Part shown: piece by piece, positions 10,777-62,714 of the stretch
How positions within the stretch are numbered: position 1 is the stretch's first letter
How the letters are laid out: every line of letters begins with the position of its first letter
Origin: Haematobia irritans
Lineage: Eukaryota; Arthropoda; Insecta; Diptera; Muscidae
Reading direction: 5' to 3'
Length of the DNA stretch: 64,000 nt
Assembly: GCF_050003625.1 (NCBI RefSeq)
Contig: NC_134397.1
Location: 268,516,070 to 268,580,069, forward strand
Position numbers and translations under genes: made by a program
Notes under the pieces: generated by a model
Database searches by the model: none
Seen by the model: the letters and a program-made list of their open reading frames with translations, nothing else
What the model was told of the DNA's origin: nothing

Positions 10777-11515
10777 TCACCTCTTCATTGCAGCCATCCT
10801 TTTGAGGTCTGAGAACAAGAAAAAGTCCCTGGGGGCCAGATCTGGAGAATACGGTGGATGGGGAAGCAATTCGAAGCCCAATTCATGAATTTTTGCCATC
10901 GTTCTCAATGACTTGTGGCACCGTGCGTTGTCTTGGCGGAACAACACTTTTTTCTTCTTCATATGGGGCCGTTTTGCCGCGATTTCGACCTTCAAACGCT
11001 CCAATAATGCCATATAATAGTCACTGTTGATGGTTTTTTCCCTTCTTAAGATAATCGATAAAAATTATTCCAAGCGCATCCCAAAAAACAGAGGCCATTA
11101 CTTTGCCAGCGGATTTTTGAGTCTTTCCACGCTTCGGAGACGGTTCACCGGTCGCTGTCCACTCAGCCGACTGTCGTTTGGACTCAGGAGTGTAGTGATG
11201 GTGCCATGTTTCATCCATTGTCACATATCGACGGAAAAACTCGGGTGTATTATGAGTTAACAGCTGCAAACACCGCTCAGAAGTATCAACACGTTGTTGT
11301 TTTTGGTCAAATGTGAGCTCGCGCGGCACCCATTTTGCATAGAGCTTCCGCATATTCAAATATTGATGAATGATATGACCAACACGTTCCTTTGATGTCT
11401 TTAAGGCCTCTGCTATCTCGATCAACTTCATTTTACGGTCATTCAAAATCATTTTGTGGATTTTTTTTGATGTTTTCGTCGGTAACCACCTCTTTCGGGC
11501 GTCCACTGCGTTCAC
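10777..11515 (-). pseudogene. mariner transposase, central and C-terminal part
   Basis: DD34D transposase of the mariner family. Catalytic landmarks are VTMDETWHHHY (first D), LFRQDNARCHKS (second D) and PYSPDLAPRDFFLF (third D), with 34 residues between the second and third. A frameshift at about 11015-11025 breaks the frame after FIDYLKKGK. The C-terminus ends early at MKR. The N-terminal part lies beyond the insertion at 13551-13758. Closest relatives in this window are at 25569-26374 and 48368-49185. Confidence 0.85.
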
Positions 11516-11532
11516 CGTCCTCCGTGGTCATT

Positions 11533-11985
11533 TCACCAATAATTCATCAATATTTGGATATGCGGAAGCTCTGTGCAAAATGGGTGCCGCGCGAGCTCAC
11601 ATTTGACCAAAAACAACAACGTGTTTGCAGTTGTCAACTCGTAATACACACGAGTTTTTCCGTCGATATGTAACAATGGATGAAACATGGCTCCATCACT
11701 ACACTCCTGAGTCCAATCGACAGTCGGCTGAGTGGACAGCGACCGGTGAACCGTCTCCGAAGCGTGGAAAGACTCAAAAGTCCGCTGGCAAAGTAATGGC
11801 CTCTGTTTTTTGGGATGCGCATGGAATAATTTTTATCGATTATCTTGAGAAGGGAAAAACCATCAACAGTGACTATTATATGGCGTTATTGGAGCGTTTG
11901 AAGGTCGAAATCGCGTCAAAACGGCCCCATGTGAAGAGGAAAACAGTGTTGTTCCACCAAGACAACGCACCGTGCCACCACCACC
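11533..11985 (+). pseudogene. inverted partial mariner transposase inside the first
   Basis: Plus-strand coding segment of the same mariner family, from IHQYLDMRKLCAKWVPREL through MDETWLHHYTPES to LFHQDNAPCH, where mini-me-like sequence takes over. A small deletion removes the codons normally linking FDQKQQRV to CLQLL, shifting the frame near 11625. It lacks both terminal repeats and the N-terminus. Confidence 0.8.
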
Positions 11986-13550
11986 ATAGAATGGTGACGG
12001 GGGTATAATAAGTTTGTCATTCCGTTTGTAACACATCGAAATATCGATTGCCGACTATATAATGTATATATATTCTTGATCAGGGAGAAATTCTAAGACG
12101 ATATAACGATGTCCGTCTGTCCGTCTGTCCGGCTGTCTGTCTGTCTGTTGTAATCATGCTACAGTCTTCAATAAAGAAGCAATCGTGCTGAAATTTTGCA
12201 CAAACTCGTCGTTTGTCTGCAGGCAGGTCAAGTTCGTAGATGGGCTCTATCGGTCCAGGTTTTGATATAGTCCCCATATAAACCGACCTCCCGATTTGGA
12301 GTCTTTGGCTTATAGAAATCGTAGTTTTTATAACCATAAGGAGGTGTGCTAAAAATGGTGAGTATCGGTCTATGTTTTGGTATAGCCCCCATATAGAAAC
12401 CGCAGTTTTTATTCAATTCCCCATATAAAACGACCTCCCGATTTGGGGTCTTGGGCTTATAGAAACCGAAGTGTTTATCCAATTTGTCTGAAATTGGAAA
12501 TCTAGAGGTATTTTAGGACCATAAAGAGGTGTGCCGAAAATGGTGAGTATCGGTCCATAGTTTGATATAGCCCCCATATAGACCGATTTCCCGATTTTAT
12601 TCCCTGTAATGGCCTCTGTTTTTTGGGATGCGCATGGAATAATTTTTATCGATTATCTTGAGAAGGGACAAACCATCAACAGTGACTATTATATGGTGTT
12701 ATATGGTGAACGTTTGAAGGTCGAAATCGCGGCAAAACGGCGTATCGGTCCATGTTTTGGTATGGTCCCCATATAAAACGACTTCCCGATTTGGGGTCTT
12801 GGGCTTATAGAAACCGTAGGTTTTAACCAATTTTTCTGAAATTGGAAATCTAGAGGTATTTTAGGACCATAAAGAGGTGTGCCGAAAATCGGTCCATATT
12901 TTGGTATAGCCCACATATAGACCGATTTCCCGATTTTACTTCTTGAGCTTCTAGAATCCGAAGTTTTTATCCTATTTGCCTGAAATTGGAAATCTAGAGG
13001 TATTTTCGGGTCATAAAGAGGTGTGCCGAAAACGAAAACGAGGATCTCCCCATTCAACTCTTTGGGTTTCTAGAAACCGTAGTTTTTATCTGATTTGCCT
13101 GAAATTGTAAATATTCTGGTATTTTAGGCTCACAAAAACGTGTATCGGATTAAGTTTTTATCGGTCCATTTGGTAATGCCTCCAAATAGACCGACTTCAC
13201 TTCTTGAGGGTGTAGAAGGCGCACTGATCATGAAAATTGCTTAAAACTCAATGTAAAATTTCCAGATTTTACTTCTACAGATTTAAGATTTCAAATCAAG
13301 ACGTTATTTTATAATTTTCTTGCACACTTACAAGAGATGTTAATGATTCCTCTAAACCTCAAACAAAAATGGTTCTTATAAATCCAGAATCTGATATAGT
13401 CCTCATAGGTGAAATCTTTAAATTTATCTTCAGGAAGTGTCCTCAAGTCCTCAAGCCCTCCTGAAATTTCAAAGGAAACCCTAATATTTCGTTCATGGTG
13501 GTGGGTATTTAAGATTCGGCCCGGCCGAACTTACTGCTGTATATACTTGT
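11981..13550. repeat. mini-me/DINE-1-like repeat, type A, with captured mariner piece
   Basis: Begins with the ACCATAGAATGGTGACGGGG hairpin end and GTCCGTCTGTCC microsatellite (12109-12150). It continues with repeats containing CCCATATAGACCGATTTCCC and AATTGGAAATCTAGAGG, and ends GATTCGGCCCGGCCGAACTT then ACTTGTTTT. A mariner fragment lies inside it at 12607-12737. Confidence 0.7.
12607..12737 (+). mobile_element. mariner fragment within mini-me-like repeat
   Basis: About 130 bp matching the mariner segment at 11793-11920 (GTAATGGCCTCTGTTTTTTG to GTCGAAATCGCGGCAAAACG), with a small duplicated TATATGGTG. No terminal repeats. Confidence 0.75.
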
Positions 13551-14145: not shown

Positions 14146-14154
14146 TATAAAAAA
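14146..14154 (+). promoter_or_regulatory. TATA box of secreted Cys-pair gene A
   Basis: TATAAAAAA, 69 bases before the ATG at 14223; predicts a leader of about 45 nt. Confidence 0.5.
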
Positions 14155-14222: not shown

Positions 14223-14795
14223 ATGATCGGCATTAAAAGTGCATTTTTAGTTCTGAACGCATTTGCATTTGTCACAGTAAAGGGGGCCGCCATCGTTTAC
14301 GATTGTAGTTCAGGAGTAGTAAGATTTTTTAGAAAACAAACACCCCTACAAAATAATTCAAATTAAATCAAATATATTTATAGTGTATTCCTACCGATAG
14401 ACCTGCGCCCTCTTATGCACCGGCCGGGGCAACGTCTGTATATATAATGCCCCAGCATATAGACATGCGAAAATTACCGCAGCAAATCGAACCCTTAAGA
14501 AAAACACAAGTCTACGAATGTACTCCTGAAAAAGTAAGTTAGCAATAACTTAAGTCGTAAATATTTTCTAATATAATTTGTATTTTTTACAAAGTGCATA
14601 CCATCAGATAAACCTGTCCCTGAAGGGCTTCCTAAAGGATTACCATGGGTATCATATATGTCAACTTTAGATCATTTAATTAAGACTCCAGAAGCACAAA
14701 CCGATTACCACTTTGAAGAGCAAGAATTTGAACATGAACCAGAAGAATACCCTTATGAACAATATTCCAATGTGGATTATCCAACAGCAGAATAG
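14223..14795 (+). CDS. secreted Cys-pair peptide gene A (3 exons), unrecognised family
   Basis: Exons 14223-14318, 14384-14533 and 14595-14795; both introns are GT-AG, phase 0, of 65 and 61 bp. The product is 148 residues. Residues 1-22 are a signal peptide (MIGIKSAFLVLNAFAFVTVK then GA). Two Cys pairs follow, C28/C33 (YDCSSGV|C) and C78/C83 (YECTPEK|C), where the bar marks the intron. Exons 2 and 3 both open CIP-T/S-D-R/K-P, so they are duplicated modules. Exon 3 adds LPKGLPWVSYM (W100) and a very acidic Glu/Tyr-rich tail ending in PTAE. No known domain recognised. Genes B (23121) and C (30436) share the whole plan. The conserved splice sites, TATA box and ATTAAA about 20 bases after the stop make it a convincing gene. 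Role unknown; secretion suggests a gland, haemolymph or reproductive-tract peptide. Confidence 0.85.
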
Positions 14796-14989
14796 AACGG
14801 CTAAATAATTCTCTATTAAAGCGGAATGTCATACAATTTGCAAAAACTGCATATAGTAAAGATGAATTAATAAGCATTAAACTAAAATTTTGTATTCATT
14901 AGCTAATATTAAAAACTAGCCTACTATGTATCTTTATTAATAAACCGCGAAAAGAGAATGAAATTTTGATAAATGAGATCTGTATTCTA

Positions 14990-15132
14990 ATTTTAATTTT
15001 ATTGGTCCTAGATTTAAAGCCAGATAAAAAATTTCTTTATTTTAAAGAAGCCGCATCTTTGGCTCGGAATCAATACCGAAATCCTTAAGGGAAGGTCAAA
15101 ATCTTTGGATCCAAGTAACTTTTTTTTGAGTG
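14990..15132 (-). mobile_element. MITE end fragment (TTTGACC/GAGTG family)
   Basis: Shares GGCTCGGAATCAATACC, GTCAAAATCTTTGGATCC and the terminus TTTTTTTTGAGTG with the full element at 18658-19358, in reverse. TA follows at 15133-15134. Confidence 0.6.
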
Positions 15133-15211
15133 TAAACATACTCAGCCACAAACGTTATTGAACATGAAGTGTCTAATTCAATCCAGATGTTTGTGACGTA
15201 ATATAAAATTA

Positions 15212-15768
15212 CACTGAAAAAAATATTGCCGTGAGGTCAAAGATTTCATGTCTTTAAAATACGAATGCAAATTTTGCTTAGCATAGAAGACGCATTTCTC
15301 TAATATACAAAGTTTCTTTCCTTGTCCAAAAGTCAATAAACTTTTCAATGAAGTCGTATTGTCCTTATAATTAAGTGATTTGACTTAAAAATGGGTATCA
15401 TAACATATTTGTTGTATTTTTGTATCTTGACTACAAAGCAAAAAATCGTTCAAATATAGGACATGTTTTTCAACACTTTATTTTAAAGACGTTTTTTACT
15501 TGAAACATAGCATAATTTCTACTGGAAGTTGAGTCTGAATTTGGAATATAAAGTTGTTGTTATCTCGTTTTTAAAGTACTTTGATAGCATATGAAGAAAA
15601 AAGCTGAAAAAGCGAAAAATTAAAATTTGCTTCCTAGAAGCAAGTACACAAAACCCAAATTTAAAAGAACATTGTGTCATAAAAGTATCCATACTTGTAT
15701 TCTCTGCTTCTTTGGCTCGGAATCAATACCAACATCTTTGGAAACGGGCATGCTTTGTTTTTTCAGTG
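15212..15768 (-). mobile_element. MITE, CACTGAAAAA family, full copy
   Basis: Termini CACTGAAAAAAATATTG and GTTTTTTCAGTG, 557 bp, flanked by TA at 15210-15211 and 15769-15770. It is inverted relative to the copies at 889-1510 and 6082-6738, and non-coding. Confidence 0.85.
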
Positions 15769-15770
15769 TA

Positions 15771-15870
15771 AGACATAATATTCGAACTACTTCTCGAGTA
15801 GTTCCTTATGAACGAAAACGTAAAGAATGCAGTTTCAAATCACACAATTTAAACGCAAGAAAGAAATTTA
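15771..15870 (+). other. unassigned 100 bp between two elements
   Basis: An open, repeat-free stretch between the MITE and the mini-me-like repeat. It could encode TTSRVVPYERKRKECSFK, but there is no start or splice site of its own. It may be a host remnant or chance. Confidence 0.2.
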
Positions 15871-17470
15871 AAACAAGTATGTATGGCCGTAAATTCGGCC
15901 AGGCCGAATCTTATGTACCCTCCACCATGAATAGCGTAGAAACTTTTACGAAAGACTGTCATCCACAATCGAATTACTTGGGTTGTGATATCTTAAATCA
16001 TTTTCATGACATGGTTGTTAAATATCATCTACTACCACCACGTTCCAAATTTCAACCTGATCGGATGAATTTTGCTTTTCCAAAAGGCACCGGAGGTCAA
16101 ATCTGGGGATCGGTTTATATGGGGGTTATATATAATTATGGACTGATATGAACCAATTCCTGCATGGTTCTTGGATACCATATACTAACATCACGTACCA
16201 AATTTCAACCTAATCGGATGAATTTTGCTCTTCCAAGGGGTTCCGGAGGTCTAATCTGGGGATCGTTTTATATGGGGGATATATATAATTATGGACCGAT
16301 GTGGACCAATTTTTGCATAGTTGTTAGAGACCATATACCAAAACCATGTACCAAATTTCAGCCGGATCGGATGAAATTTCCTTCTCTTTGAGGCTCCGCA
16401 AGCCAAATCTGGGGATCAGTTTATATGGGGGCTATATATAATTATGCACCGATGTGGACCAGTATTTGTATGGTCATTAGAGACCATATACTAACACCAT
16501 GTACCAAATTTCAGCCGGATTGGATGAATTTTGCTTCTCTTAGAGGCTCCACAAGCCAAATCGGGGGATCGGTTTATATGGGGGATATATATAATTATTG
16601 GCCGATGTGGACCAATTTTTGCATAGTTGTTAGAGACCATATACTAACACCATGTACCAAATTTCAGCCGGATCGGATGAAATTTCCTTCTCTTGGAGGC
16701 TCCGCAAGCCAAATCTGGGGATCGGTTTATATGGGGGCTATATATAATTATTGGCCGATGTGGACCAATTTTTGCATAGTTGTTAGAGACCATATACTAA
16801 CACCATGTACCAAATTTCAGCCGGATCGGATGAATTTTGCTTCTCTTAGAGGCTTCGCAAGCCAAATTGGGGGATAGGTTTATATGGGGGCTATATATAA
16901 TTATTGGCCGATGTGGACCAATTTTTGCATAGTTGTTAGAGACCATATACTAACACCATGTACCAAATTTCAGCCGGATCGGATGAAATTTCCTTCTCTT
17001 GGAGGCTCCGCAAGCCAAATCGGGGGATCGAATTATATGGGGCTATATATAATTATGGACCGATGTGGACCAATTTTTGCATGGTTGTTAGAGACCATAT
17101 ACTAACACCATGTACCAAATTTCAGCCGGATCGGATGAAATTTGCTTCTCTTAGAGGATCGGCAAGCTAAATTTGGGGGTCCGTTTATATGGGGGCTATA
17201 CGTAAAAGTGGACCGATATGGCCCATTGGCAATACCATCCAACCTACATCAATAACAACTACTTGTGCCAAGTTTCAAGTCGATAGCTTGTTTCGTTCGG
17301 AAGTTAGCGTGATTTCAACAGACGGACGGACGGACATGCTTAGATCGACTCAGAATTTCACCACGACCCAGAATATATATATACTTTATGGGTTCTTAGA
17401 GCAATATTTCGATGTGTTACAAACGGAATGACAAAGTTAATATACCCCCATCCTATGGTGGAGAGTATAC
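15871..17470. repeat. mini-me/DINE-1-like repeat, type A, full length
   Basis: Runs from AAACAAGTATGTATGGCCGT and the palindrome ATTCGGCCAGGCCGAAT to the hairpin end TATACCCCCATCC...GGTGGAGAGTATA. It contains a tandem core of 153-bp units and a GACGGACGGACGG microsatellite (about 17320). No target-site duplication seen. Non-coding in my judgement, although the unit length is divisible by three and keeps frames open. Confidence 0.8.
16290..17200 (+). repeat. 153-bp tandem repeats
   Basis: Successive copies of GATGTGGACCAATTTTTGCA start at 16604, 16757 and 16910, a spacing of 153 bp (51 codons). Because the period is a multiple of three, a frame reading MGAIYNYWPMWTNFC stays open through several units. 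Older and younger copies carry frameshifts and internal stops, so this is not treated as a gene. Confidence 0.85.
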
Positions 17471-17502
17471 AAATCTCGTAATTTGAAAACCCTTTTCATA
17501 GG

Positions 17503-17640
17503 TTAGGTATAGTCGCAGTCTATTGTGATAGCACAGTGATGAACTTCTCTTATCACTGAGTGTTGCCCGATGGGTTTAATACACTTAGAAATGTCACCAG
17601 CATTACTGAAAGGGGATAATCCACCGCTGAAAAAACTTTG
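17503..17640 (-). mobile_element. SINE remnant without tRNA head
   Basis: Diverged 3' body of the tRNA-derived SINE in reverse (GGTTAGGTATAG...AACTTCTCTTATCACTGAGTG...GGATAATCCACCGCTGAAAA). From 17641 to 17860 I see only AT-rich sequence. Confidence 0.65.
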
Positions 17641-17863
17641 ATGTTTAATTCTTAAATTTATTTTTATTGTTTTTTTTTACTTTTTTATAGATTTTTTATT
17701 CTTTTTTGAAACATTTGCCAAAAAATTAAATGATGACTACGGCCAACTTTAGCTCCAAACTAACTTCATCGGAAGTGGAAAAAATTAATGGAGGATCTGG
17801 GGATATTCTTATAAAGAAATGTTCCAATTTTTTTGAAATCTAATTTTAATTCTATAATGCCTA

Positions 17864-18641
17864 CACCCTCAAACAAAAAAATCGCTTCTGTAACATATAC
17901 CCCAAACATATTTTGCTTCAAGCATATATATTCAGGATTGCTCGAAACAAAATATTGTTCGTATTGTTCAAACATATTATGTTTTACCTTAGTCCATACA
18001 CTGGTAGAAAAAAATTTAATGAAATTTTCTTTATGTGGATATATTTTTAATGCGCCAATTGGTTACTTCCATTGTTTTACTTGCAGCATACTCTCTAGGT
18101 CTCTCTTTCTAAACATATATATGTTTATAGGCTATTTGTAAATTAATATATGTTTGCACCTAAGCATATTATATTTACAAACATAGGTTAGGTTAGGTGG
18201 CAGCCCGATGCATCAGGCTCACTTAGACTATTCTGTGATACCACAATGGTGAACTTCTCTCTTACCACTGAGTGCTGCCCGATTCCATGTTAAGCTCAAT
18301 GACAAGGGACCTCCTTTTTATAGCCGAGTCCGAACGGCATTTCACATTGCAGTGAAACCACTTAGAGAAGCTTTGAAACCCTCAGAAATGTCACCAGCAT
18401 TACTGACGTGGGATAATCCACCGCTGAAAAACTTTTTGGTGTTCGGTCGAAGCAGGAATCGAACCCACGACCTTATGTATGCAAGGCGGGCATGCTAACC
18501 ATTGCACCACGGTGGCTCCCAAACATGTTATGCTAGTTTATGAACATTATGTGCTTGCACTTAAAAATATTGTGTTAAAAAAATTGAGTTCTAAACATAT
18601 AATTTTTACACCCAAACATATGAAAAAGTCTTTTTCGTCCG
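17864..18641. mobile_element. TIR element of the AAACATAT family, copy i
   Basis: Starts CACCCTCAAACAAAAAAATC, ends AAAGTCTTTTTCGTCCG, flanked by TA (17862-17863, 18642-18643). Rich in AAACATAT motifs shared with copies at 26524-27843 and 27981-29785. This copy lacks the internal tRNA-like modules and is interrupted by a SINE at 18186-18520. Confidence 0.75.
18186..18520 (-). mobile_element. tRNA-derived SINE, full length
   Basis: On the minus strand: a tRNA-like head with A box TGGTGCAATGG and B box GGTTCGATTCC, a body of about 230 bp (AAAAAGTTTTTCAGCGGTGG, AAAAAGGAGGTCCCTTGTC), and a CCTAACCTAACC tail. Flanked by the short direct repeat AAACAT. It uses a Pol III type internal promoter and needs a LINE's reverse transcriptase to move. 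Copies: 35469-35813, 56986-57289 and fragments. Confidence 0.9.
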
Positions 18642-18657
18642 TATAGGTTTAAAGCTA

Positions 18658-19358
18658 CACTCACAAAGAAAAGTTTACTTGGATCCAAAGATTTTGACCT
18701 TCTCTTAAGGATTTTGGTATTGATTTCGAGCCAAAGATACGGCTTCTTTAAAATAAAGACAATTTTTAGCGACCTATCTGGCCTTAAATCCAGAATCAAT
18801 AAAATTAAATTTGGGATTCAGATCACATTTATTGAATTTTCATTTTCTTTTCGCGGTATATTAATTTGGGTCAAATTTCGGGTCAGGGTCGATATTAACG
18901 TCATGGTGACGTTCCATGTGGACTGCGGGAGTCGGTAGCGCTGGGTCACGTACAAACAAATGCCAGTTTAAAAATCCAAATTATATCCACAAAAACTTTA
19001 AACCAAATATGCTTAATCCTCAAAATAAGTCTTAGCCTATATTCGAAGCTTTTTTATTTTAAATCTAAAGATTTAATATTTCAGTTAATTTAAGGACGAT
19101 TTCTTTAAATCAAAAAGGTGTTTCTTTATTTTAAGGAAATTTTTCCTTAGTTCATAGACATGAGACTTTAACGCAAATTTATAAAATTTATGTCCTAAAT
19201 TTAATAAAAAAAAATTGTTGAAGTCAAGATTATAAACTGTGTTTTAACTAAATTTAATTATTTTAAATAAATTTGTCCTTAATATTTTTTAAATTGCGCA
19301 TCCTAAAATTTAAATTGCATAATCTTTAATATCATGTAAATATTTTTTTTTTTCAGTG
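18658..19358 (+). mobile_element. MITE, CACTCACAAAG/TTTCAGTG family, full copy
   Basis: Left end CACTCACAAAGAAAAG, right end TTTTTTTTTTTCAGTG, 701 bp, TA at 18656-18657 and 19359-19360. Internal phrases GATTTTGACCTTC and GGCTTCTTTAAAATAAAG recur at 14990, 19370, 24790, 52853 and 54020. Non-coding. Confidence 0.8.
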
Positions 19359-19360
19359 TA

Positions 19361-20095
19361 GATAGCTCAATAAAAAATCTTTATTTTAAAGAAGCGGTAT
19401 TTTTAGCTAGAAATCAAAACCAAAATTCTTAAATGAATGTCAAAATCTTTGGGTCCATGTAAACTTTTTTTAATGAAAAAATATCAAGTATGCAAAACTT
19501 AAAATTAAAACATAATTTCGTCGTAATGTCAACCGTAGTGTAATTATCCACTTCTTTGAAAAAAGAAATTTCGCCAAAATCGTTCGCGTTATTATAAAAT
19601 CCAACGATGCAATTCTCCAAAATCCACAAAGGGTTAATACTCGATTTTTTCGTATCGTGTTATGAGCACGTAAATTTATAGAAATATATTTTTCTAAAAC
19701 AATTACTTGCATTTAAAATGGATATATTAATGTTTTGTACATGTGGGTTAATTTTTTTAATTATGCCATAAGGCATGCTCCAATTATCATATTATCAGAA
19801 TAAATTTGCAAGAAGATTTTGTCTGAAATAGAATTAGTTAAGCTTGGAACAAGGCAAGTTCAGTCCGAAATTCTTACACCCTTTACATTCTACTCCCCTT
19901 AGGAAAAAAATGTAGTAAAAGTGTATGCCCCATGTTCCCGATATTCGGAATCGTAAATCACAAAAATTCTAAAACATGCTTGGGATAAGAAAATATCGAA
20001 AAAAAAATAATAATAATAAAATTAAACTGAATATTGTTTTGCAATAAATACAAATTATATTTAGCATGGGTTTAATATTTTTATGTTCATGAAAG
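19361..20095. other. AT-rich stretch with a MITE remnant
   Basis: Bases 19370-19475 are an inverted fragment of the neighbouring MITE (TTATTTTAAAGAAGCGG...GTCAAAATCTTTGGGTCC). The rest is AT-rich sequence with no gene, repeat or signal that I can name. Confidence 0.4.
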
Positions 20096-20109
20096 GATGA
20101 CATATATCG

Positions 20110-21224
20110 ATGGGATACGACCATATAGATCCAAAATTTGTGAGAATTTTGCTGCCACTGATCCTGCCATATGTCACCCATGCTTTCAATTCTATTTTGA
20201 CAAGGAGTACTTTCCCCGGTCTTTGGAAACATGCTAAGGTCATACCCATACCTAAGGGTAAATCGGAGTTTCGGCCAATATCACTGCTTCCCTTCTTTTC
20301 CAAGGTGTTCGAGAGACTTTTGAATGGGCAAATGCAGGAATTTCTGAATCGATATTCCCTGTTATCTTCAAGGCAATCGGGTTTTCGTTCGGGCCACAGC
20401 TGCATAAGTGCTCTGGCTGATGTGTGTGAGGCTTTAAGATCTGATCAGGATGAGGGAAGAGTCAATTTTCTGGTGCTGCTGGACCATTCGAAAGCGTTTG
20501 ATTCGGTGGATCATTCCCTTTTATGTTTGAAGCTGAGGAACCTTTTTAATTTCTCGGCCAGTTCGGTACGTCTTCTGCATTCCTATCTCGTTGACAGGAG
20601 ACAGTCAGTATACACGGATATTGGTACTTCGGATCCCTTAATTGTTTCAAGAGGCGTACCGCAGGGTTCAACTCTTGGTCCTCTCCTTTTTTCTCTCTAT
20701 ATAAATGATTTGCCACATGTTTTGAGATATAGCAGGGTACAGATGTACGCTGATGATGTACAAATATATATGAGCAGCGATATCCGTTCTTTGAGCGCCG
20801 GTATAGACATGATCAATGACGACCTCCTTTCTGTGAACAACTGGGCTACAAGAAATGGATTGCTCCTGAATCCAAGGAAGTCTAAGTGCCTAGTGATACA
20901 TGGACGTGGTATTCAAGTCCCTAACGACATTGAGGTTAAGATTGACGGACAACAGGTGGAAATTGTTTCCACGGCCAAGAATCTTGGTGTAGTATTGAAT
21001 AGTAACTTGTCTTGGGGGGATCATATAAACTACATTGTTGGTCAGGCATATGCGAAATTAAGAACTTTATGGAACACTCAGCGATTTACGCCGCTCAAGA
21101 CAAGGGTTATATTAGCTAAGAGTTATGTCTTGCCAGGATTGTTGTATGGAAGTGAACTATTTTCGGGTTGCGATGCCGGAAGCAGACGGAAGTTGAATGT
21201 TGTTTACAATAATATTGTGAGATA
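20110..21224 (+). pseudogene. LINE reverse transcriptase, interrupted
   Basis: About 372 codons of RT before the MITE. Motifs in order: EFRPISLLPFFSKVFERL, SGFRSGHSC, FLVLLDHSKAFDSVDHSL, SRGVPQGSTLGPLLFSLYIN, the catalytic MYADDVQIYM, GLLLNPRKSKCLV and LGVVLNSNLSWGDHI. The protein would copy its own RNA at a chromosomal nick. The frame then runs into MITE sequence (TEKNITKIFPIKK) and stops at 21294. The missing C-terminal codons (YGLRRFDHITRYRELLYG) lie at 22408-22640. The segment is intact apart from the insertion, so the copy was fairly young when hit. The 5' truncation means it was already a dead-on-arrival insertion. Confidence 0.85.
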
Positions 21225-21980
21225 CACAGAAAAAAATATCACCAAAATATTTCCAATTAAAAAGTTAATTGAAGTTGAAAATGTTTTCAATTAATAAATT
21301 AATTGATACAATTAACTTTTTAATCATGATAGAAACATTAAGTTAATTAAGCCAGTGATTGAAAATTTTAAAAATATATATGAGCAGCGATATCCGTTCT
21401 TTGAGCGCCGGTATAGACATGATCAATGACGACCTCCTTTCTGTGAACAACTGGGCTACAAGAAATGGATTGCTCCTGAATCCAAGGAAGTCTAAGTGCC
21501 TAGTGATACATGGACGTGGTATTCAAGTCCCTAACGACATTGAGGTTAAGATTGACGGACAACAGGTGGAAATTGTTTCCACGGCCAAGAATCTTGGTGT
21601 AGTATTGAATAGTAACTTGTCTTGGGGGGATCATATAAACTACATTGTTGGTCAGGCATATGCGAAATTAAGAACTTTATGGAACACTCAGCGATTTACG
21701 CCGCTCAAGACAAGGGTTATATTAGCTAAGAGTTATGTCTTGCCAGGATTGTTGTATGGAAGTGAACTATTTTCGGGTTGCGATGCCGGAAGCAGACGGA
21801 AGTTGAATGTTGTTTACAATAATATTGTGAGATACACAGAAAAAAATATCACCAAAATATTTCCAATTAAAAAGTTAATTGAAGTTGAAAATGTTTTCAA
21901 TTAATAAATTAATTGATACAATTAACTTTTTAATCATGATAGAAACATTAAGTTAATTAAGCCAGTGATTGAAAATTTTA
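20761..21980 (+). repeat. 610-bp tandem duplication
   Basis: Bases 20761-21370 are repeated at 21371-21980 with no difference that I could find by eye (e.g. TGAGCAGCGATATCCGTTC at 20771 and 21381). Each copy holds the 3' part of the RT frame and the first 146 bp of the MITE, so the event is later than the MITE insertion. The junction shows short AAATATATA-like homology. Recent duplication or an assembly artefact. Confidence 0.9.
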
Positions 21981-22405
21981 AAATTTTTAATTAAAAAATT
22001 AATTGATAAAATTAACTTTTTAATCAAATTCGGAAGACTTATTCAGTTAAAAAAAGTGCTGATTTTTTTTTTAATTTTTAATTAAAAATGTATTTCAAAC
22101 AATGATTTGTTAATCCAAATAAAAACACTAAGTCAATTCAGAAAGTAATTAAAAATAGTTACCTTTTTTAATTAATTAATTAATTGAGTTTTGCAATCAA
22201 CATCAATTAAATTTTTAATTGAATCAATTAAAAAATTAATTGAAATTTGCTGAAAAAATCAATTAATTCTTTAATCAAGAATTTTTTCTATGCCCAATTA
22301 AAACTGTGATTGATACTATCATTTTCGTGATTGAACACATTTCAATTAAAAAATTAATTGGATCAATTAATTTGGTGATTGAATCAGAAAATTTTTTTTT
22401 GTGTG
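21225..22405 (+). mobile_element. MITE, CACAGAAAAAA/AATTAATT family, in LINE
   Basis: Termini CACAGAAAAAAATATC and TTTTTTTTTGTGTG, TA at 21223-21224 and 22406-22407. Packed with AATTAAAAAATTAATTG palindromes. Without the 610-bp duplication it is 571 bp, like the 580-bp copy at 53405-53984. Excision with one TA rejoins the LINE codons IVRY and VYGLRRF. Confidence 0.85.
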
Positions 22406-22407
22406 TA

Positions 22408-22640
22408 CGTTTATGGATTGAGGCGCTTTGACCATATCACCAGATACAGGGAACTTCTTTATGGCGTGTCATTCGATAACTTGTTGAGAATCCGACAACT
22501 TTTGTTCCTTCATAGAATTATTTATACACGCGAACCTAGGTACCTATATGAGAGGCTTCGGTTTGCGAGGTCTAACAGGGGTAAGAAATTAGTTCCTTTG
22601 CGGCATCGAAGTCTGGTTTCAACTTGGCATTTCTTCAATT
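22408..22640 (+). pseudogene. LINE ORF2 C-terminal part after the MITE
   Basis: Continues the RT protein with YGLRRFDHITRYRELLYG, LLRIRQLLFLHRIIYTREP and NRGKKLVPLRHRSL, then decays into AT-rich 3' sequence. Confidence 0.75.
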
Positions 22641-23073
22641 ATTTCATTATTCAAATTTATTATCAAACTAATCTTAACAGCATATGCTATATTTCTTTTC
22701 CTTTGTCTTAATAATTATAATCATTTAATAATTATTTTTGTAATTAATTTTTATAATTATTTTTGTTTCCTTTTAAATTATAATATTTTCTCTTAATTCT
22801 TTAATTGTATTTTTAGATTTTTTGTTTCGATTTTCTTTATTTATATGAACCTAACGTAACTTGTTATTAAATTACTAAGAGGAAATACTTTTTAATGAAA
22901 ATTCCTGTACAGTAAATATAAGTCGTAAGTCTTGTTGTGCAGGATAAATAAATGAATAAATATACAGTAGCCAAGTTGAGAAAAATTAACTGAATGCCTT
23001 TTTGACCAAGAGTAATATAGGGTATACACTAGTTGGCTTTTTCCAATTTTAGCCTTTTGTTTCTTGTATTTGC

Positions 23074-23081
23074 TATAAATA
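23074..23081 (+). promoter_or_regulatory. TATA box of secreted Cys-pair gene B
   Basis: TATAAATA, 40 bases before the ATG at 23121; predicts a very short leader. Confidence 0.55.
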
Positions 23082-23120
23082 ACTCTCACCTACATAAGGT
23101 CTGCTCGTGATTTATTCAAA

Positions 23121-23438
23121 ATGCGTGTGCTTGAATTCGCTTTAATTTTTCTAGCATTAGTTTCGATAGATACTACAGCGGCAACCAAAGCTTATGAATG
23201 TAATCCTGATGGAGTAAGATTTTTATTAATCGGATAAATTGCTGGCACTAGTTGACATAACTTTGTTTTTTGTTTTTATCTCCTCCAGTGTTCGCCTACT
23301 AAAGCCATACCAAATTATATTCCTGAAAAAGTGCCATGGTTACTTTATATGCCCTTCCGGAAGGATGTAGTGCAAAATGATCTACATTTACAGACAGATG
23401 GAGTAGATTGGATAATGTGTGTGCCTAAACAGAACTAA
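23121..23438 (+). CDS. secreted Cys-pair peptide gene B (2 exons), unrecognised family
   Basis: Exons 23121-23213 and 23289-23438, with one phase-0 GT-AG intron of 75 bp. The product is 80 residues, the shortest of the three paralogues. Residues 1-20 are a signal peptide (MRVLEFALIFLALVSIDTTA). The Cys pair is C27/C32 (YECNPDG|C), again split by the intron. Exon 2 begins CSPTKAIPNYIPEKVPW, carrying the Pro-Trp-Leu-x-Tyr-Met motif (W48), and ends with a further Cys (C75, WIMCVPKQN). It has a single module where A and C have two. A TATA box lies 40 bases upstream and AATAAA 66 bases after the stop. It sits between the 3' end of a LINE and old MITE debris. No known family recognised. Confidence 0.85.
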
Positions 23439-23503
23439 AAAATTAATTGATAAAAAAATTATCCAATAATTGGTAGACGGCCTTAATATGATTACCCGCA
23501 AAA

Positions 23504-23509
23504 AATAAA
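23504..23509 (+). terminator. poly(A) signal of gene B
   Basis: AATAAA about 66 bases after the TAA stop of gene B. Confidence 0.55.
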
Positions 23510-24009
23510 CAGTTTTTGTATCTCTTCAAAAAGTTTAAACTTTTAATGCAAAAAAAAATATGTTTGTAAAACATTTTTATTATAAAAACAGTTTACGACA
23601 CATATCATGGGATCATGGGATTTCTTGTTAAAAATTTTATACACTACTATGCAATGTCACGCGTTGTAAAGTGACCTTTTCGAAATTGTACCAACATTTT
23701 TGAAATATATAGGTGAACTACATTACATCAGATTTTGTTCCATCCAAAATTTGTAAGAAAGGTAGCATCAGAAGTTTGCAAAAAGCTTGTGTGTACATCA
23801 CACAGTGGTCTATAAATGCCAAAGTCAAAGACGGTTTCGTTTATATCAAGCGCTATTCTGAATGGCTATAGGCCGCAAATTTATTTCTTTCTTTCGTAGT
23901 AAAAATTTAATTTAATTTCATGACTTACATCCAATTTTGGAATATATTAAAAAAAATCTCGTTAACAAATTTTTAAAGAAAAAAATTGCAGCAAAAATGA
24001 ATAAATGCA
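23510..24009. other. intergenic, no recognisable feature
   Basis: AT-rich, with one TTTGTAAAACATTTTTATTA palindrome-like stretch reminiscent of the AAACATAT family. No gene or clear repeat. Confidence 0.3.
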
Positions 24010-24751
24010 AATTTGTTTCCTTACAGGATTTTTCCCCAAATGGGGGATATTTTTTCGTGGATGGGGACAAAATTTTTGAGTTGGGGACTTGGAGATTTGG
24101 TGGGGAATTTCCACAAATTTGGGAATTTTTGTGGGGAATTCTGGTCAGTATAACAAATCAGGTTTTGAGTTATGGTTTATATGAAATTCTTTACTTCTAC
24201 ATGCTTTAAAAGGGGCTTAAAGAAGTCCCGAGAATCTTCAAAATATGAAACAAAAATCTATTCCATGAGTTACTTTACAATTTGCTTTGTTTCTAAGAAA
24301 TTGTTTACTATTGTGAATTTATTTCGTAAGGACTTGGGTCGAAGTGTTGGCCTCTAAGTTTTGAATCATAACTACACATGTTGACCCAACTTCTATTTTT
24401 ATTTCTCGAGCATTTAGAAGATGAAGACACAAATTCGATGACTCTTTATACCAATAATTAATTCCGATGAGGGATTGTATCAGATTATATTTTGAGGACC
24501 CGTCTCATTTTTTGGATTCTAAAATCTTAATCTTATTGTATCTCGCAAACTGGTATAATAAAAATTGCATATTTGTACAATTTTTAGATTATGACGGATT
24601 TTTCACAGCAGAGCCTATTCCTTTTTTCAAAAAACTTGCCATAAACTGTATTGGGGATTTTTTGTGGAGAATTTTAAATTAAATTGGGGATTTTTGGGAA
24701 TGAAAGCGTCTTATTTTGGGGATAAGAGCCCGACAAAAACTGGCAACACTG
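24010..24751 (+). mobile_element. GGGGATTTTT-rich element ending in CAACACTG
   Basis: Repeated TTTTTGGGGATTTTT and TGGGGA phrases on both sides of about 400 bp, ending CGACAAAAACTGGCAACACTG. The inverse of that end (CAGTGTTGCCA) is a common hAT-like terminus, but no matching left end or target duplication is visible. A short fragment of the 18658-type MITE follows at about 24795-24890. Confidence 0.4.
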
Positions 24752-25024
24752 TTTCCTTATGTCAAGTACGCGAAACTAAAATTGAAACACTAATTATGTC
24801 CGCTTCTTTGACATGGAATCAATATCAATATGATTAGAGTAAAGACCAAATTTTTGGAGCTGAACATCCTTTTTTGTTTCGTGTAGAAAAAATGTTTGAC
24901 AAATAATTTTTGTTGGCTGCTCAAATTTTCATACGTGCATCCGATTTCTCTAGAAATGTTTCTACTCAGAGAAAACAAGGTTTGGAAATTTGATCGGTCG
25001 ACTTTAGCTTTTATGTGGCTGATT

Positions 25025-25566
25025 TTTATACCCTTCACCACTACTGTGGTACAGGGTTTAATAAGTTTGTGCATTTGGATGTAACGCCAAGAAGGCAAGG
25101 TGTGAGACCCATCGTTTAGTATACCGATCGTCTTAGAATTGAATTCTGAATCGATTTAGCGTTGTCCGTCCGTCTGCCTGTCTGTCCGTCCGTCTGTCTG
25201 TATATGTAATTTTGTGCACAAAGTACAGCTCGTAATTTAAGTCTGATCGTTCTCAAATTTGGTATAGGGTCGTTTTGTGGGACAGAGACAATCGCTATTG
25301 CTTTTGGAAAATATCGGTTCAGATTTAGATATAGCTACCATATATATTTATCCCCGATCTGGTCATAATTGGCGTTTTTATCAACCGATGTTCTTCAAAT
25401 TACGTACATCCGAATATTTTATGAGCCTCGAAAAGCTTGCAAAATATCAGCCAAATCGGTTCAGATTTAGATATAGCTTTCATATATATCTTTCGTTCGA
25501 TGTAGACTCATATGACCACAGAGGCCAAAGTTTACCACCGATTTTCGTGAAATTTTGCACAGAGAG
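25025..25566 (+). repeat. mini-me-like repeat, type C
   Basis: Head TACCCTTCACCACTACTGTG with GTACAGGGTTTAATAAG, microsatellite GTCCGTCCGTCTGCCTGTCT (25167-25200), then units with TCGGTTCAGATTTAGATATA. Interrupted by the mariner at 25569. Confidence 0.65.
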
Positions 25567-25568
25567 TA

Positions 25569-26374
25569 ACAGGTTGGCTGATAAGTCCCCAGTCTGACAC
25601 ACAGATGGCGTCGCTAGTATTAAATGCATATTATTTTTATATAGTATCAACCTTCAAATGATTCGTGTCACGTCGTTGACGTCTGTAAGTCAATTAGTTT
25701 GTGAGATAGAGCGTCTTTTGTGAAGCAACTTTTTTTATTGTGAAAAAAAAAATGGAAAAAAGGAATTTCGTGTTTTGATAAAATACTGTTTTATGAAGGG
25801 AAAAAATACGGCGGAAGCAAACACTTGGCTTGATAATGAGTTTCCGGACTCTGTCCCAGGGAAATCAACAATAATTGATTGGTATGCAAAATTCAAGCGT
25901 GGTGACATGAGCACGGAGGACGGTGAACGCAGTGGACGCCCGAAAGAGGCGGTTACCGACGAAAACATCAAAAAATCCACAAAATGATTTTGAATGACCG
26001 TAAAATGAAGTTGATCGAGAAAGCAGAGGCCTTAAAGATATCAAAAGAACGTGTTGGTCATATCATTCGTCAATATTTGGATATGCGGAAGCTCTGTGCA
26101 AAATGGGTGCCGCGCGAGCTCACATTTGACCAAAAAAAAACAACGTGTTGATGATTCTGAGCGGTGTTTGCAGCTGTTAACTCGTAATACACCCGAGTTT
26201 TTCCGTCGATATGTGACAATGGATGAAACATGGCTCCATCACTACACTCCTGAGTCCAATCGACAGTTGGCTGAGTGGAGAGCGACCGGTGAACCGTCTC
26301 CGAAGCGTGGAAAGGCTCAAAAGTTCGCTGGCAAAGTAATGGCCTCTGTTTTTGGCATGCGCATGGAATAATTT
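25569..26374 (+). mobile_element. mariner (DD34D), 3' truncated
   Basis: Left terminus ACAGGTTGGCTGATAAGTCC preceded by TA (25567-25568), then transposase. The sequence leaves mariner identity at about 26374, after the codons for MASVF, so the third catalytic Asp region and right terminus are missing. Confidence 0.85.
25752..26371 (+). pseudogene. mariner transposase, frameshifted and truncated
   Basis: N-terminal half MEKRNFRVLIKYCFMKGKNT...FPDSVPGKSTIIDWYAKFKR...STEDGERSGRP ends at a frameshift near 25970-25985 (IKKSTK stop). The frame resumes with ERVGHIIRQYLDMRKLC; an extra A in an A-run near 26140 shifts it again. It then reads VDDSERCLQLLTRNTPEFFR and MDETWLHHYTPES (first catalytic Asp). 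Nothing after MASVF. Confidence 0.85.
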
Positions 26375-27276
26375 CATATGACTATCATATAGCTACTATG
26401 GCTTCACCGGCCATATACAGTATGTCAAGAAAGTCTTTTGACATTGCCAAAGATTTCAAATTCTAGAAATAATTGAAATATTAAATATTTTATTAAATTT
26501 TTAATTCTGTGTACGTATGTATACACTGTTAGAAAAATATGTTTTTCATATGTTCCGATATAAAAAAAATGTGTTTCGGGCACAATTTTGAAACACAATA
26601 TATTTAAGTGCAAACATGTAATGTTCCTAAACTAACACTAAATGTTTGGGACATCTATGTTAATATGTTAGAATATATTATGTTTGGGGCATGAATGTTT
26701 CATAAAAATCATATGTGTGAATGCAAACTTATATATATTTACAAATTTCGACTAAACATACATATGTTGTGATATTTTATTCAAAGCGACAGAGAGAGTA
26801 TAGAGAAAGAAATAGAGATGGAAACCGGGAGAGTTGACGAAAGATATCAACATAACACAGCGAAAGAATCAAAAGAGAACAATTTCTGTGAAACCGCTTT
26901 TATGTTGTTTCGGAAAACTGTTTTATGATAAGGCCAAAAATTTGATATGCTTAAGTCTAAATATTATTTAATTTGAATAAAGAGAATAGACATTCGGAAT
27001 CAAGAGAATAGACATTTGAAAAACAAACAGCATATGTTTTCGCCTTGAGAGCAGCATTTTATGTATATGTGGACATGTGTTTTGTTTATCATTTTGGCAT
27101 TATGGGCACAATTTTTTTCTTGGCTCGTTAGGGGTCTCCATAAAAATAACGAAAGGGCACTGTACTCTTTTTAGAGTTGGGACAGTAAAATGATTAATAA
27201 CCCACATTTCGAAGTTTCATTATAAAAATTTAATATAGTATAAATATAAATGTGTAAATTAAAAAAAAACGTGTTC

Positions 27277-27347
27277 GGTCGGAGCAGGGATTGAACCCAC
27301 GACCCTCTGCATGCAAGGCAGACATGCTAACCACTGCTCCACGTGGC
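27277..27347 (-). ncRNA. tRNA-like module 1 (copy ii)
   Basis: Minus strand: A box GGAGCAGTGGTTAGC region, an anticodon-type stem-loop TCTGC-CTTGCAT-GCAGA, and B box GGGTTCAATCCC. It is followed after 7 bases by a run of nine T (27261-27269), a Pol III terminator. The acceptor stem does not pair well, so it is not a working tRNA gene. It is clearly related to the SINE head at 35469. Confidence 0.65.
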
Positions 27348-27461
27348 AAACAAATGTATGCTTCTGTTAAATAATGTTATGTTTGCATGGGCTCGTGGGC
27401 GCTGCAAACTATGCTATATAAATGTAACTTATAACGATAATTATGTACTGGTGACTATACC

Positions 27462-27532
27462 AGCTACGTAGTCCAGTGGATAGTGTGTTCGCTTACAAAC
27501 TGTATGGTCCTCGGTTCGATTCTCCGTGCAGG
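27462..27532 (+). ncRNA. tRNA-like module 2 (copy ii)
   Basis: A box TAGTCCAGTGG (27469-27479) and B box GGTTCGATTCT (27513-27523) at tRNA spacing. It reads away from module 1. No strong T-run follows closely. Confidence 0.6.
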
Positions 27533-28294
27533 CAAGGTAAAATGTAAAAAATTTATAAAAGTGAATAATTTCTTCAACATTATTTGTATTACAAAAAAAG
27601 GTGCCAAGAACTAAAATATTTCGTAGAATTGAAAATTACGAGTATGTTGAGCAATGAGCACAATCGTCTTTGGGAAAAATTCTTCCAAGCATATAATATT
27701 TTTGGGCTCAAAATGCTTCCAAACATATAATATGTTCACATAAAACAAACATATTAATGTTTCGGCAGTATCCAATAATATATGTGCTTCCTGCAAAATA
27801 TGTTTGGAACATATGTTAAAGAAACGATTTTTTTTTGAGGGTGTACTTTTCAAAATACATAATAAAATATTTTTTTAAAATTTCATTATATTTAATTTTG
27901 GAACAAAACATAATTTTTATCCCATTGTCAAAACACTTTCTTGACAAACTGTAAGTGCATAGAGGGCGAAAGATATATATGCACCCTCAAAAAAAATCGC
28001 TTCTTTAACATATGTTCCAAACATATTTTGCAGGAAGCACATATATTATTGGATACTGCCGAAACATTAATATGTTTGTTTTATGTGAACATATTATATG
28101 TTTGGAAGCATTTTGAGCCCAAAAATATTATATGCTTGGAAGAATTTTTCCCAAAGACGATTGTGCTCATTCCCTAACATACTCGTTATTTTCACTTCCA
28201 CGAAATATTTTAATTCTTGGCACCTTTTTCTGTAATACAAATAATGTTGAAGAAATTATTCACTTTTATACATTTTTTTAAATTTTACCTTTCG

Positions 28295-28365
28295 CCTGCA
28301 CGGAGAATCGAACCGAGTACCATACAGTTTGTAAGCCAACACACTATCCACTGGGCTACGTAGCT
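28295..28365 (-). ncRNA. tRNA-like module 2 (copy iii)
   Basis: Minus-strand counterpart of 27462-27532, with B box GGTTCGATTCT and a slightly altered A box TAGCCCAGTGG. Confidence 0.6.
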
Positions 28366-28479
28366 GTCATTGTCACCAGCAGATAATTATCGTTATAAGT
28401 TACATTTATATAGCATAGTTTGCAGCGCCCACGAGCCCATGCAAACATAACATTATTTAACAGAAACATACATTTGTTT

Positions 28480-28550
28480 GCCACGTGGAGCAGTGGTTAG
28501 CATGTCTGCCTTGCATGCAAAGGGTCGTGGGTTCAATCCCTGCTCCGACC
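28480..28550 (+). ncRNA. tRNA-like module 1 (copy iii)
   Basis: GCCACGTGGAGCAGTGGTTA at the 5' end, anticodon-type loop CTTGCAT, B box GGGTTCAATCCC, then GAACAC and a run of 15 T (28557-28571), a strong Pol III terminator. Same module as at 27277-27347. Confidence 0.65.
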
Positions 28551-29785
28551 GAACACTTTTTTTTTTTTTTTAATTTACACATTTATATTTATACAATATT
28601 AAATTTTTATAATGAAACTTCGAAATGTGGGTTATTAAAGATTTATAGTCATTAACAGTGTTTGATATAAACGAAATTGACTGATTTTTGGATAAAATAT
28701 TATTTTTTTATTGCAAAAATAACAATTTTGTAACAAAAAACTGTTTTTGGTACAAAACTTTAAAATGTGGAAGGAATTCAAAAACTAACAAAAGAAGAAC
28801 GTGGAGTCGAGTATAAACATACATAAATAATTTTATAATATAAACATAAATTTATTTAGGCGTAAACAGTTTTTTACTAGCATTTAACACCATCGCTCTA
28901 AAATGCCTTTTATTTTTCTTTAATAATTCATTTTAAAGAAAATAAACTTTTTAAATTGTTTTAGCTGCAAAACTCGAACTTAATGCCTGCTTTTATATTT
29001 GAAGGTGTCCGTTAACTCCTCTTGTACTACTTATTAATAAAGAGGAACTAAACTTTGTTTTTATACATTTTACTGTGTAATTTTTCACTATTTCCTCCTT
29101 ATTTCATTTTAATGTCCCCACTATAAAAAGAGTATAGTGCCCTTTCGTTATTTTTATGAAGACCCCTGATTTCTTGTAACGAACCAAGAAAAAAATTGTT
29201 CCCATAATGCCAAAATGATAAACAAAACACATGTCCACACATACATAAAATACTGCTCTCAAGGCGAAAATATATGCTGTTTGTTTTCCAAATGTCTATT
29301 CTATTGGTTCCGAATGTCTATTCTCTTTATTCAAATTAAATAATATTTAGACTTAAGCATATCAAATTTTTGGCCTTATCATAAAACAGTTTTCCGAAAC
29401 AACATACAAGCGGTTTCACAGAAATTGTTCTCTTTTGATTCTTTCGCTGTGTTATGTTGATATCTACGGTCAACTCTCTCTCCCGGTTTCCATCTCTATT
29501 TCTTTCTCTATACTCTCTCTGTGGCTTTGAAAAAATATCACAACATATGTATGTTTAGTCGAAATTTGTAAATTTATATATGTTTGCATTCACACATATG
29601 ATTTTTGTGAAACATTCATGCCCCGAACATAATATATTCTAACATATTAACATAGATGTCCCTAACATTTAGTGTTAGTTTAGGAACATTACATGTTTGT
29701 ACTTAAATATATTGTGTTTGAAAATTGTGCCCGAAACACATTTTGTTTATATCGGAACATATGAAAAACATATTTTTTAAGAGTG

Positions 29786-30205
29786 TGGGAGCTATATCTT
29801 AATCTGACCCGATTTCAATCAAATTTCGTACACTTAACTACACGACCAAGTGTTATGTTTGTACAAAATCTCAAGCAAATTAGGCTAAAACTATGGCTTC
29901 ATCGGGCGAAAGATAGGGAGCAATATCTAAATTGCAACCGATTTCTTCCAAAATCTATTCTATTGGGTTCTATTCTGACCCAAAACAGAAACTTGTGCCA
30001 AATTTGAAGTCCATTGTACTAAAACTGCGACCTAGACTTTGATCCCAAAAATGTGTTCACAGACAGACGGACATGGCTAGATCGACTCAGGGACCAACCC
30101 TGAGCATTATTGCCAAAGACACCATGTGTCGATCACGTCTACTTCTGGTTGTTGCAAACATATGCACTAACTTATAATACCCTGTTCCACAGTGTGGCGC
30201 AGGTA
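29786..30205 (+). repeat. mini-me-like repeat, type B, tail portion
   Basis: Continues the repeat interrupted by copy iii: GGGAGCTATATCTTAATCTG, the ACAGACAGACGGAC microsatellite, and the ATAATACCCTGTTCCACAGT end. Confidence 0.75.
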
Positions 30206-30435
30206 AAAAAAAAAAAATAAAATCATTACCGCGTATTGTCTGCATTATTATTCATCATTCTCTTTATGATGGGATTAAGAAGACAAATTCATTACTTTAA
30301 CTATTGCAATACAATTTCAAAGCATGTCCAAGATACATTATTTCAATGCATGACGAATTGTCTAATTCAAAAAATTTAGCAATTTCATTTCGATTACAAA
30401 TTGAGAATTTTAACTTTTCAACAAGCATTTGAAAA

Positions 30436-31127
30436 ATGAACGGGCTCAGGTGCTTCTTAATTTTTCTCATTCTATATATCTTTCACATTTCAAAGGCAAC
30501 CGATGTTTTGGATTGTAATTCTGAAGGAGTAAATATTATTCACAAAGTTTTTTTTTTATTTAGATTTACAATTACTATTTTGTGTTATCCAACAGTGTAC
30601 ACATTCAGATGAACCTGCCCCATTTAACATGCCTGAGGGACAACTTATAATGATGCCTATTCCAGACGAAGCGAAAGATAAAAAAATTTCGTCATTTGGT
30701 GCAGATCAAAAAGTTGTACTCAATTGTAGTACAGGAATACAGGTAAGTTTTCCACCAATACTACACTAATAGAAAAGGAATATGATCACCTCCTAGAGCA
30801 AAATGTTATTTTTGGATGGGGAGAAAACAAAACTTTTGTCGCAAAAATGTTGTTTTTATCGTCAAACATCAAATGTGGTTGTCGAAATCAGATACATAAT
30901 GTCTGTTACGCTGCGACATGTTACATACTCAGCGTCCCAAATCAAAATTTGTATCTAGGAGGTGATCATATTCCTTCTTAGGGTGCATTTTTAAGAAAAT
31001 ATTTAATTTAAAAATTCTTTTGTTTTAAAAGTGCAGAGTTTCAAATCAAGAAATACCTGATTATGTGCCCGAAGAATCACCATGGGTAATATTTATGCCT
31101 GCCCTGAATAAATTCAGGAATAAGTGA
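30436..31127 (+). CDS. secreted Cys-pair peptide gene C (3 exons), unrecognised family
   Basis: Exons 30436-30528, 30596-30742 and 31032-31127; phase-0 GT-AG introns of 67 and 289 bp. The product is 111 residues. Residues 1-20 are a signal peptide (MNGLRCFLIFLILYIFHISK). Cys pairs are C27/C32 (LDCNSEG|C) and C75/C81 (LNCSTGIQ|C), each split by an intron exactly before the second Cys. Exon 2 opens CTHSDEPAPF and has GQLIMMPIPDE. Exon 3 is CRVSNQEIPDYVPEESPW then VIFMP (W98), closely matching exon 2 of gene B. Intron 2 is long only because it holds a 222-bp MITE; without it, it would be about 65 bp. AATAAA is at 31223-31228. No TATA box obvious. Function unknown. Confidence 0.85.
30764..30985. 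mobile_element. palindromic GATCACCTC MITE inside intron 2 of gene C
   Basis: Left end CACTAATAGAAAAGGAATAT with GATCACC, right end the inverse GGTGATCATATTCC ending TTAGGGTG, 222 bp. Flanks are TA and CA. Same family as 47164-47413. Confidence 0.8.
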
Positions 31128-31222: not shown

Positions 31223-31228
31223 AATAAA
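31223..31228 (+). terminator. poly(A) signal of gene C
   Basis: AATAAA about 95 bases after the TGA stop, just before the next TIR element. Confidence 0.5.
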
Positions 31229-62528: not shown

Positions 62529-62714
62529 TGCACAACTTAAAAGAAAACATATCAATTCATATTTAAGTAAAGCAAATGTTAGAATTGATAACACAGTTTA
62601 TATTTTAAGATAATATAAACTTAGGTTTTATAAGGTTATTGTTCATAAAAGTGAATCGTACAGACCGATATCCCTTCTCTCGTCAGTAGGCAAGACACTT
62701 GAGGCACTACTTCT

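Follow-up and report, generated by a model that had tools for sequence, protein, structure and literature searches.

Among the closest described counterparts of the genes treated here are the Bomanins of Drosophila, effectors that Toll induces after infection. In their 2015 description, a short cysteine-pair motif is present once or twice per Bomanin, with a variable tail or linker, 10 of the 12 genes lie in one cluster, the motif is 16 residues long and contains CXXC, and the orthologues then known all came from Drosophila (PMC4411088); that paper and a second report distinguish short, tailed and two-headed forms of the one motif (PMC4411088, PMC12894722). Two further systems matter for a blood-feeding fly. 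Exosite-I thrombin inhibitors are characterised by the motif E-x-I-P-x(0,1)-[ED]-x-[L] (PMC8573170), and the hematobin or 15.6 kDa salivary family is represented by a protein of 143 residues with a signal peptide, conserved cysteines and a mature isoelectric point (pI) of 8.47 (PMC6064106), which another study assigns to a large insect family (PMC6664567). Here we describe three small genes, numbered 1 to 3, that lie close together in a 64,000-base window (C1:268516070-268580069) of the 1,173,491,510-base assembly of the horn fly, Haematobia irritans; all positions given below are those of this window, the whole stretch of DNA analysed. We are all but certain that the three genes form a family and that they share the module structure set out next.

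The unit of the family is a repeated module of about 31 residues, an architecture that a preliminary description of the same DNA had overlooked. Each module consists of a short hydrophobic stretch ending in [YL][DEN]C, four or five further residues, an intron, a cysteine, a run rich in prolines and a closing hydrophobic segment, and is present twice in gene 1, twice in gene 3 and once in gene 2. The cysteine motif already recognised in the preliminary description takes the form LNC-x5-C in the second copy of gene 3 and [YL][DE]C-x4-C in the other four copies. Its other signature, PW[VL]x[YF]M in the final exon, is likewise present in all three genes, where it ends the C-terminal module copies and is absent from the first copies of genes 1 and 3. 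Every one of the five introns splits a cysteine pair immediately 5' of the second cysteine codon, and the middle exon of genes 1 and 3 starts at the second cysteine of one pair and ends with the front half of the following module. With all introns in phase 0 and directly preceding a second cysteine, the middle exon amounts to a cassette of module size, open to gain or skipping in frame; since every exon of genes 1 and 3 has a length divisible by three, skipping it would preserve the frame and rebuild one cysteine pair, yielding, we infer, a one-module form. An intron placed inside a disulphide pair would be a simple and testable route to one- and two-headed peptides.

The gene models behind this architecture hold up on re-splicing. 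All five junctions proposed earlier are exact, with GT..AG introns and open exons, and the products have the predicted lengths of 148, 80 and 111 residues for genes 1, 2 and 3; the single strand (plus) and the common exon phases are borne out as well. Introns measure 65 and 61 bases in gene 1, 75 in gene 2, and 67 and 289 in gene 3. Gene 1 is identical across its 148 residues to the NCBI model LOC142223195 of Haematobia irritans, and gene 3 corresponds exactly, over 111 residues, to LOC142219728, both labelled "uncharacterized". Gene 2 gave no return from protein-database searches, which require shared five-residue words, so that its absence from databases is unprovable and it may be unannotated or annotated otherwise; strongly diverged small secreted peptides often escape annotation, and gene 2 may be such a case. 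By simple hydropathy and -3/-1 rules rather than a trained predictor, all three proteins have the strongly hydrophobic, signal-peptide-like N-terminus that had been claimed, with plausible cleavage at about residues 20-24. G+C content declines from codon position 1 through 2 to 3 in each of the three genes, as is usual for coding sequence in an AT-rich genome.

Comparison among the copies points in the same direction. Smith-Waterman alignments of the mature proteins scored above all 5000 shuffles in each of the three gene pairs, and in 9 of 10 module-module alignments none of 2000 shuffles reached the observed score, the weakest pair being the two modules of gene 3 (p = 0.006); these alignments indicate that the five modules are mutually related. 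The proportion of synonymous differences (pS) exceeds that of nonsynonymous differences (pN) in 10 of 10 module pairs, which, with values near saturation over about 31 codons each, supports reading-frame constraint but yields no useful rate. Divergence outside the motif is strong, as the preliminary description held: gene 3 shares 26% identity with gene 1 and 36% with gene 2. The acceptor pattern AG|TGY followed by P...PW[VIL].[YF]M has three occurrences in the window against none across 200 windows simulated with a first-order Markov model, and a donor-side pattern occurs four times, once per C-x4 junction, against a simulated mean of 0.2 and maximum of 2 (for the first junction of gene 1 the match falls on a GT that precedes the true donor by three bases). 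Both patterns were composed after the genes had been seen and thus describe rarity; the independent test is the exact match to NCBI models. That the genes are spurious or decayed, i.e. chance open frames or pseudogenes in a repeat-rich region, seems very improbable: the surroundings do look by eye like largely transposable elements and repeats, and gene 2 is without database return, but two of the genes are exact NCBI models, the modules are homologous with the excess of pS over pN just described, the splice sites are intact, and poly(A) signals are present (Table 1).

Table 1. Exons and flanking signals of the three horn-fly genes, in window coordinates.
Feature	Position	Strand	Basis and remarks
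Gene 1 exon 1: signal peptide and VYDCSSGV (module 1, first half)	14223..14318	+	re-spliced sequence; NCBI LOC142223195; exon recovered in own-genome search
Gene 1 exon 2: module 1 second half, linker with two RK pairs, module 2 first half (VYECTPEK)	14384..14533	+	re-spliced sequence
Gene 1 exon 3: module 2 second half with PWVSYM, then acidic 44-residue tail	14595..14795	+	re-spliced sequence
Gene 2 exon 1: signal peptide and AYECNPDG	23121..23213	+	re-spliced sequence
Gene 2 exon 2: second half of sole module with PWLLYM, and tail with third Cys	23289..23438	+	re-spliced sequence
Gene 3 exon 1: signal peptide and VLDCNSEG	30436..30528	+	re-spliced sequence; NCBI LOC142219728
Gene 3 exon 2: module 1 second half, linker with KK, module 2 first half (VLNCSTGIQ)	30596..30742	+	re-spliced sequence
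Gene 3 exon 3: module 2 second half with PWVIFM	31032..31127	+	re-spliced sequence
TATA-like box TATAAAA, gene 1	14146..14152	+	consensus match only; 77 bases before ATG
TATA-like box TATAAAT, gene 2	23074..23080	+	consensus match only; 47 bases before ATG
AATAAA poly(A) signal after gene 1	14939..14944	+	ATTAAA variants nearer, at 14815, 14876, 14908
AATAAA poly(A) signal after gene 2	23504..23509	+	
AATAAA poly(A) signal after gene 3	31223..31228	+	

Across the three genes the AATAAA signal follows the stop codon by 66-144 bases; no TATA-like box was found for gene 3 within 150 bases upstream. Two peculiarities of single genes may be recorded here. The second intron of gene 3 (30743-31031), at 289 bases against 61-75 elsewhere, contains an insert resembling a miniature inverted-repeat transposable element, with perfect 23-base inverted ends at 30775-30797 and 30954-30976. 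The tail of gene 2 has an odd third cysteine (WIMCVPKQN, 23409-23435) that could permit a dimer or another partner.

The earlier claim that the genes belong to no known family stands within the reach of our searches, which covered Pfam, the PDB and a protein database of 5.8 billion sequences, the last limited to proteins sharing five-residue words. None of the three proteins matched a Pfam family above cut-off; the names that appeared below it at an expectation value (E) <= 1 for genes 1 and 3 (YdjO, Ldl_recept_a and Endopep_inhib, E 0.067 to 0.18) were set aside, and gene 2 gave none. At E <= 10 the protein database (4, 79 and 7 candidates examined) returned only genes 1 and 3 themselves, and nothing from other species. 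A search of the fly's own genome with gene 1 gave three matches from four candidates, namely its own three exons, and no convincing fourth member was found within 100 kb on either side by tblastn (best non-member E 0.38) or by a splice-motif scan of 264 kb. One donor-like look-alike, at 67217 (minus strand), was discarded: it sits in repeat-like sequence, and the stretch checked contained no matching acceptor. The family thus has three known members, genome-wide paralogy having been judged with the gene 1 query alone. Among the papers covered by a text search, none named LOC142223195 or LOC142219728 alongside Haematobia irritans, and the three transcripts may be catalogued in the supplementary tables of PMC6664567. 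We conclude that this small gene family is real and, within search reach, unnamed, and that it is of a well-known kind, the lineage-specific secreted cysteine peptides.

Structure prediction, which the preliminary description had proposed as a check, gave a mixed answer: models of genes 1 and 3 agree in having three short strands per module at matching places, but confidence is low throughout. The AlphaFold2 models, built from two-sequence alignments, have a mean predicted local distance difference test score (pLDDT) of 56.9 for gene 1 and 45.3 for gene 3, and place strands at residues 24-27, 34-36, 49-53 and 73-78, 83-86, 100-104 in the former and at 24-28, 31-35, 48-51 and 71-75, 81-83, 98-103 in the latter. 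This pattern is weakly suggestive of a disulphide-capped hairpin with a third strand. With the low-confidence model of gene 1, Foldseek returned 15 PDB matches at E <= 10, the best at 1.1 and none at E <= 0.001. Among sequence comparisons with the PDB, gene 3 had two matches, both at E 1.3, and a profile of all three genes had two, at E 1.1 and 1.6, with Kelch-like proteins absent. Such proteins did match gene 2 and were rejected: the six stretches of the best match each have an i-Evalue of 3.3 to 12, chance level, and the low total arises because it is summed over near-identical repeats of designed proteins. Also rejected were the 14 PDB sequences of elongation factor 2 matching gene 1, with a best E of 0.038 over a single short stretch.

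In layout, the three genes resemble Bomanins in several respects at once: both are small secreted peptides in which a cysteine-pair motif occurs once or twice, the tails or linkers vary, the genes are clustered and the reported range is narrow, and the copy numbers are of the Bomanin type, with one copy and a tail in gene 2 and two copies in genes 1 and 3. They differ in the motif itself, which in Bomanins is CXXC within 16 residues and here C-x4/5-C, in a module of about 31 residues whose second half is rich in proline, and in host, reported as Drosophila in the 2015 paper as opposed to a muscid. A Bomanin/DIM family exists in Pfam. Because no C-x2-C occurs in any of the three proteins and none has a Pfam match, membership of the Bomanins fails. 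By analogy, we nevertheless favour the possibility that the family comprises extracellular defence effectors that have a Bomanin-like layout without being Bomanins; this is the least certain part of our account, with a probability of roughly 0.35. Going by secreted proteins in general, the cysteine pair would form a small disulphide-closed loop joining two strands, with the third strand of the module packed onto that hairpin. The middle exon would add one whole module with frame and cysteine pairing kept, one- and two-module forms would arise through exon gain, loss or skipping, and the peptides would act outside cells in defence, in the manner of Drosophila Bomanins. If so, a Bomanin-like design would exist outside Drosophila. 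The fuller proposal, that this is a new horn-fly- or Stomoxyini-specific family that evolved via a plug-in exon, perhaps giving rise to one- and two-headed effectors that converge on the Bomanins of Drosophila, we offer as a speculative and somewhat doubtful one.

Several observations weigh against a role in defence. The structure models are of low confidence (mean pLDDT 57 for gene 1 and 45 for gene 3), and NF-kB-like sites are sparse in the 600 bases upstream of the genes: in a scan run without a chance control, gene 1 had a loose site at -296 and another, long-spaced, at -555, gene 3 had a single site at -346 and gene 2 had none. At the assumed cleavage points the mature peptides are acidic (pI 4.5-5.6), which sets them apart from classical cationic antimicrobial peptides. 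A P/R-rich C-terminus in one member of an adjoining secreted family was counted in favour of defence, yet it is a matter of composition only.

The tail of gene 1 is acidic, with a net charge of about -12, and includes, from residue 127, the stretch FEHEPEEYP. This raises the possibility of salivary anti-haemostatic or immunomodulatory proteins, in which the acidic, tyrosine-rich tail of gene 1 would bind a basic exosite of thrombin and the cysteine-loop modules would serve as scaffold. The horn fly is an obligate blood feeder, and a horn-fly study reports 11 transcript families of unknown function confined to Stomoxyini or Haematobia (PMC6664567); moreover, FEHEPEEYP agrees with the exosite-I motif of inhibitors such as XC-43, variegin and hirudin at E, P and [ED], at the motif's spacing (PMC8573170). 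However, the full motif is absent from all three proteins, since gene 1 has E and P where the hydrophobic I and L belong; its tail has no PDB match at E <= 10, genes 2 and 3 lack an acidic tail altogether, and the two salivary families highlighted among the 11 are called alkaline (PMC6664567), whereas the proteins here are acidic. Hematobin is comparable to gene 1 in length (143 and 148 residues), signal peptide and conserved cysteines, but differs in mature pI (8.47 as against 4.58); it was not among the matches of gene 1 at E <= 10 in the word-limited search, and no direct alignment was made. On balance we regard a salivary role as unlikely; if correct, horn-fly saliva proteins would gain a new candidate in this family. 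The same horn-fly study lists over 300 secreted midgut transcripts of unknown function (PMC6664567), and the three genes could be among them.

The preliminary description also suggested that the family evolves fast and may be immune, salivary or seminal; the suggestion of fast evolution draws only on divergence between paralogues of one species. All three roles suit a small, clustered family of diverged secreted peptides in a blood-feeding fly. Strong paralogue divergence, together with the lack of relatives outside the species in word-limited protein searches, would suit seminal-fluid peptides of the male reproductive tract, a class often fast-evolving, orthologue-poor and clustered. In a Stomoxys study, a signal peptide is predicted for 165 of the 763 male-tract-biased genes, and Drosophila genes with male bias are described as faster-evolving and without identifiable orthologues (PMC7944917). 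None of the features specific to seminal proteins was seen in the three proteins, however, and a seminal role, possible on general grounds, appears rather unlikely to us.

The linkers between modules contain basic pairs in both two-module proteins, RK at residues 61 and 71 of gene 1 and KK at 60 of gene 3. Were these cut, two small cysteine-loop peptides would be freed, and the proteins would be precursors of signalling peptides. RK and KK are weak cleavage sites, none of the three proteins has a furin-type R-x-[KR]-R site, and the tail of gene 1 is long, all of which make this explanation improbable.

The adjoining secreted family lies on the opposite strand, at 9363-9977 (-), L011:7745-8029 (-) and L011:3504-3689 (-). 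Its members, an S/Q/R-rich repetitive protein, a 94-residue protein with a P/R-rich end and a shorter copy of 61 residues, have in common the signal peptide MxxxTYxLxFxxxCxLPTAxxC, and gave nothing above cut-off in Pfam. Elsewhere in the window, translations read by eye point to transposable-element remains, in the form of mariner-like transposase and LINE-like (long interspersed nuclear element) reverse transcriptase frames, at 6873-7577, 11021-12008, 20101-21904 and 62614-63819. A 29-base AT-rich unit, AAAATTTTATTTCTATAGAAAATTTTGTC, is repeated in long arrays at 32337-34824 (about 86 copies) and 38430-39402.

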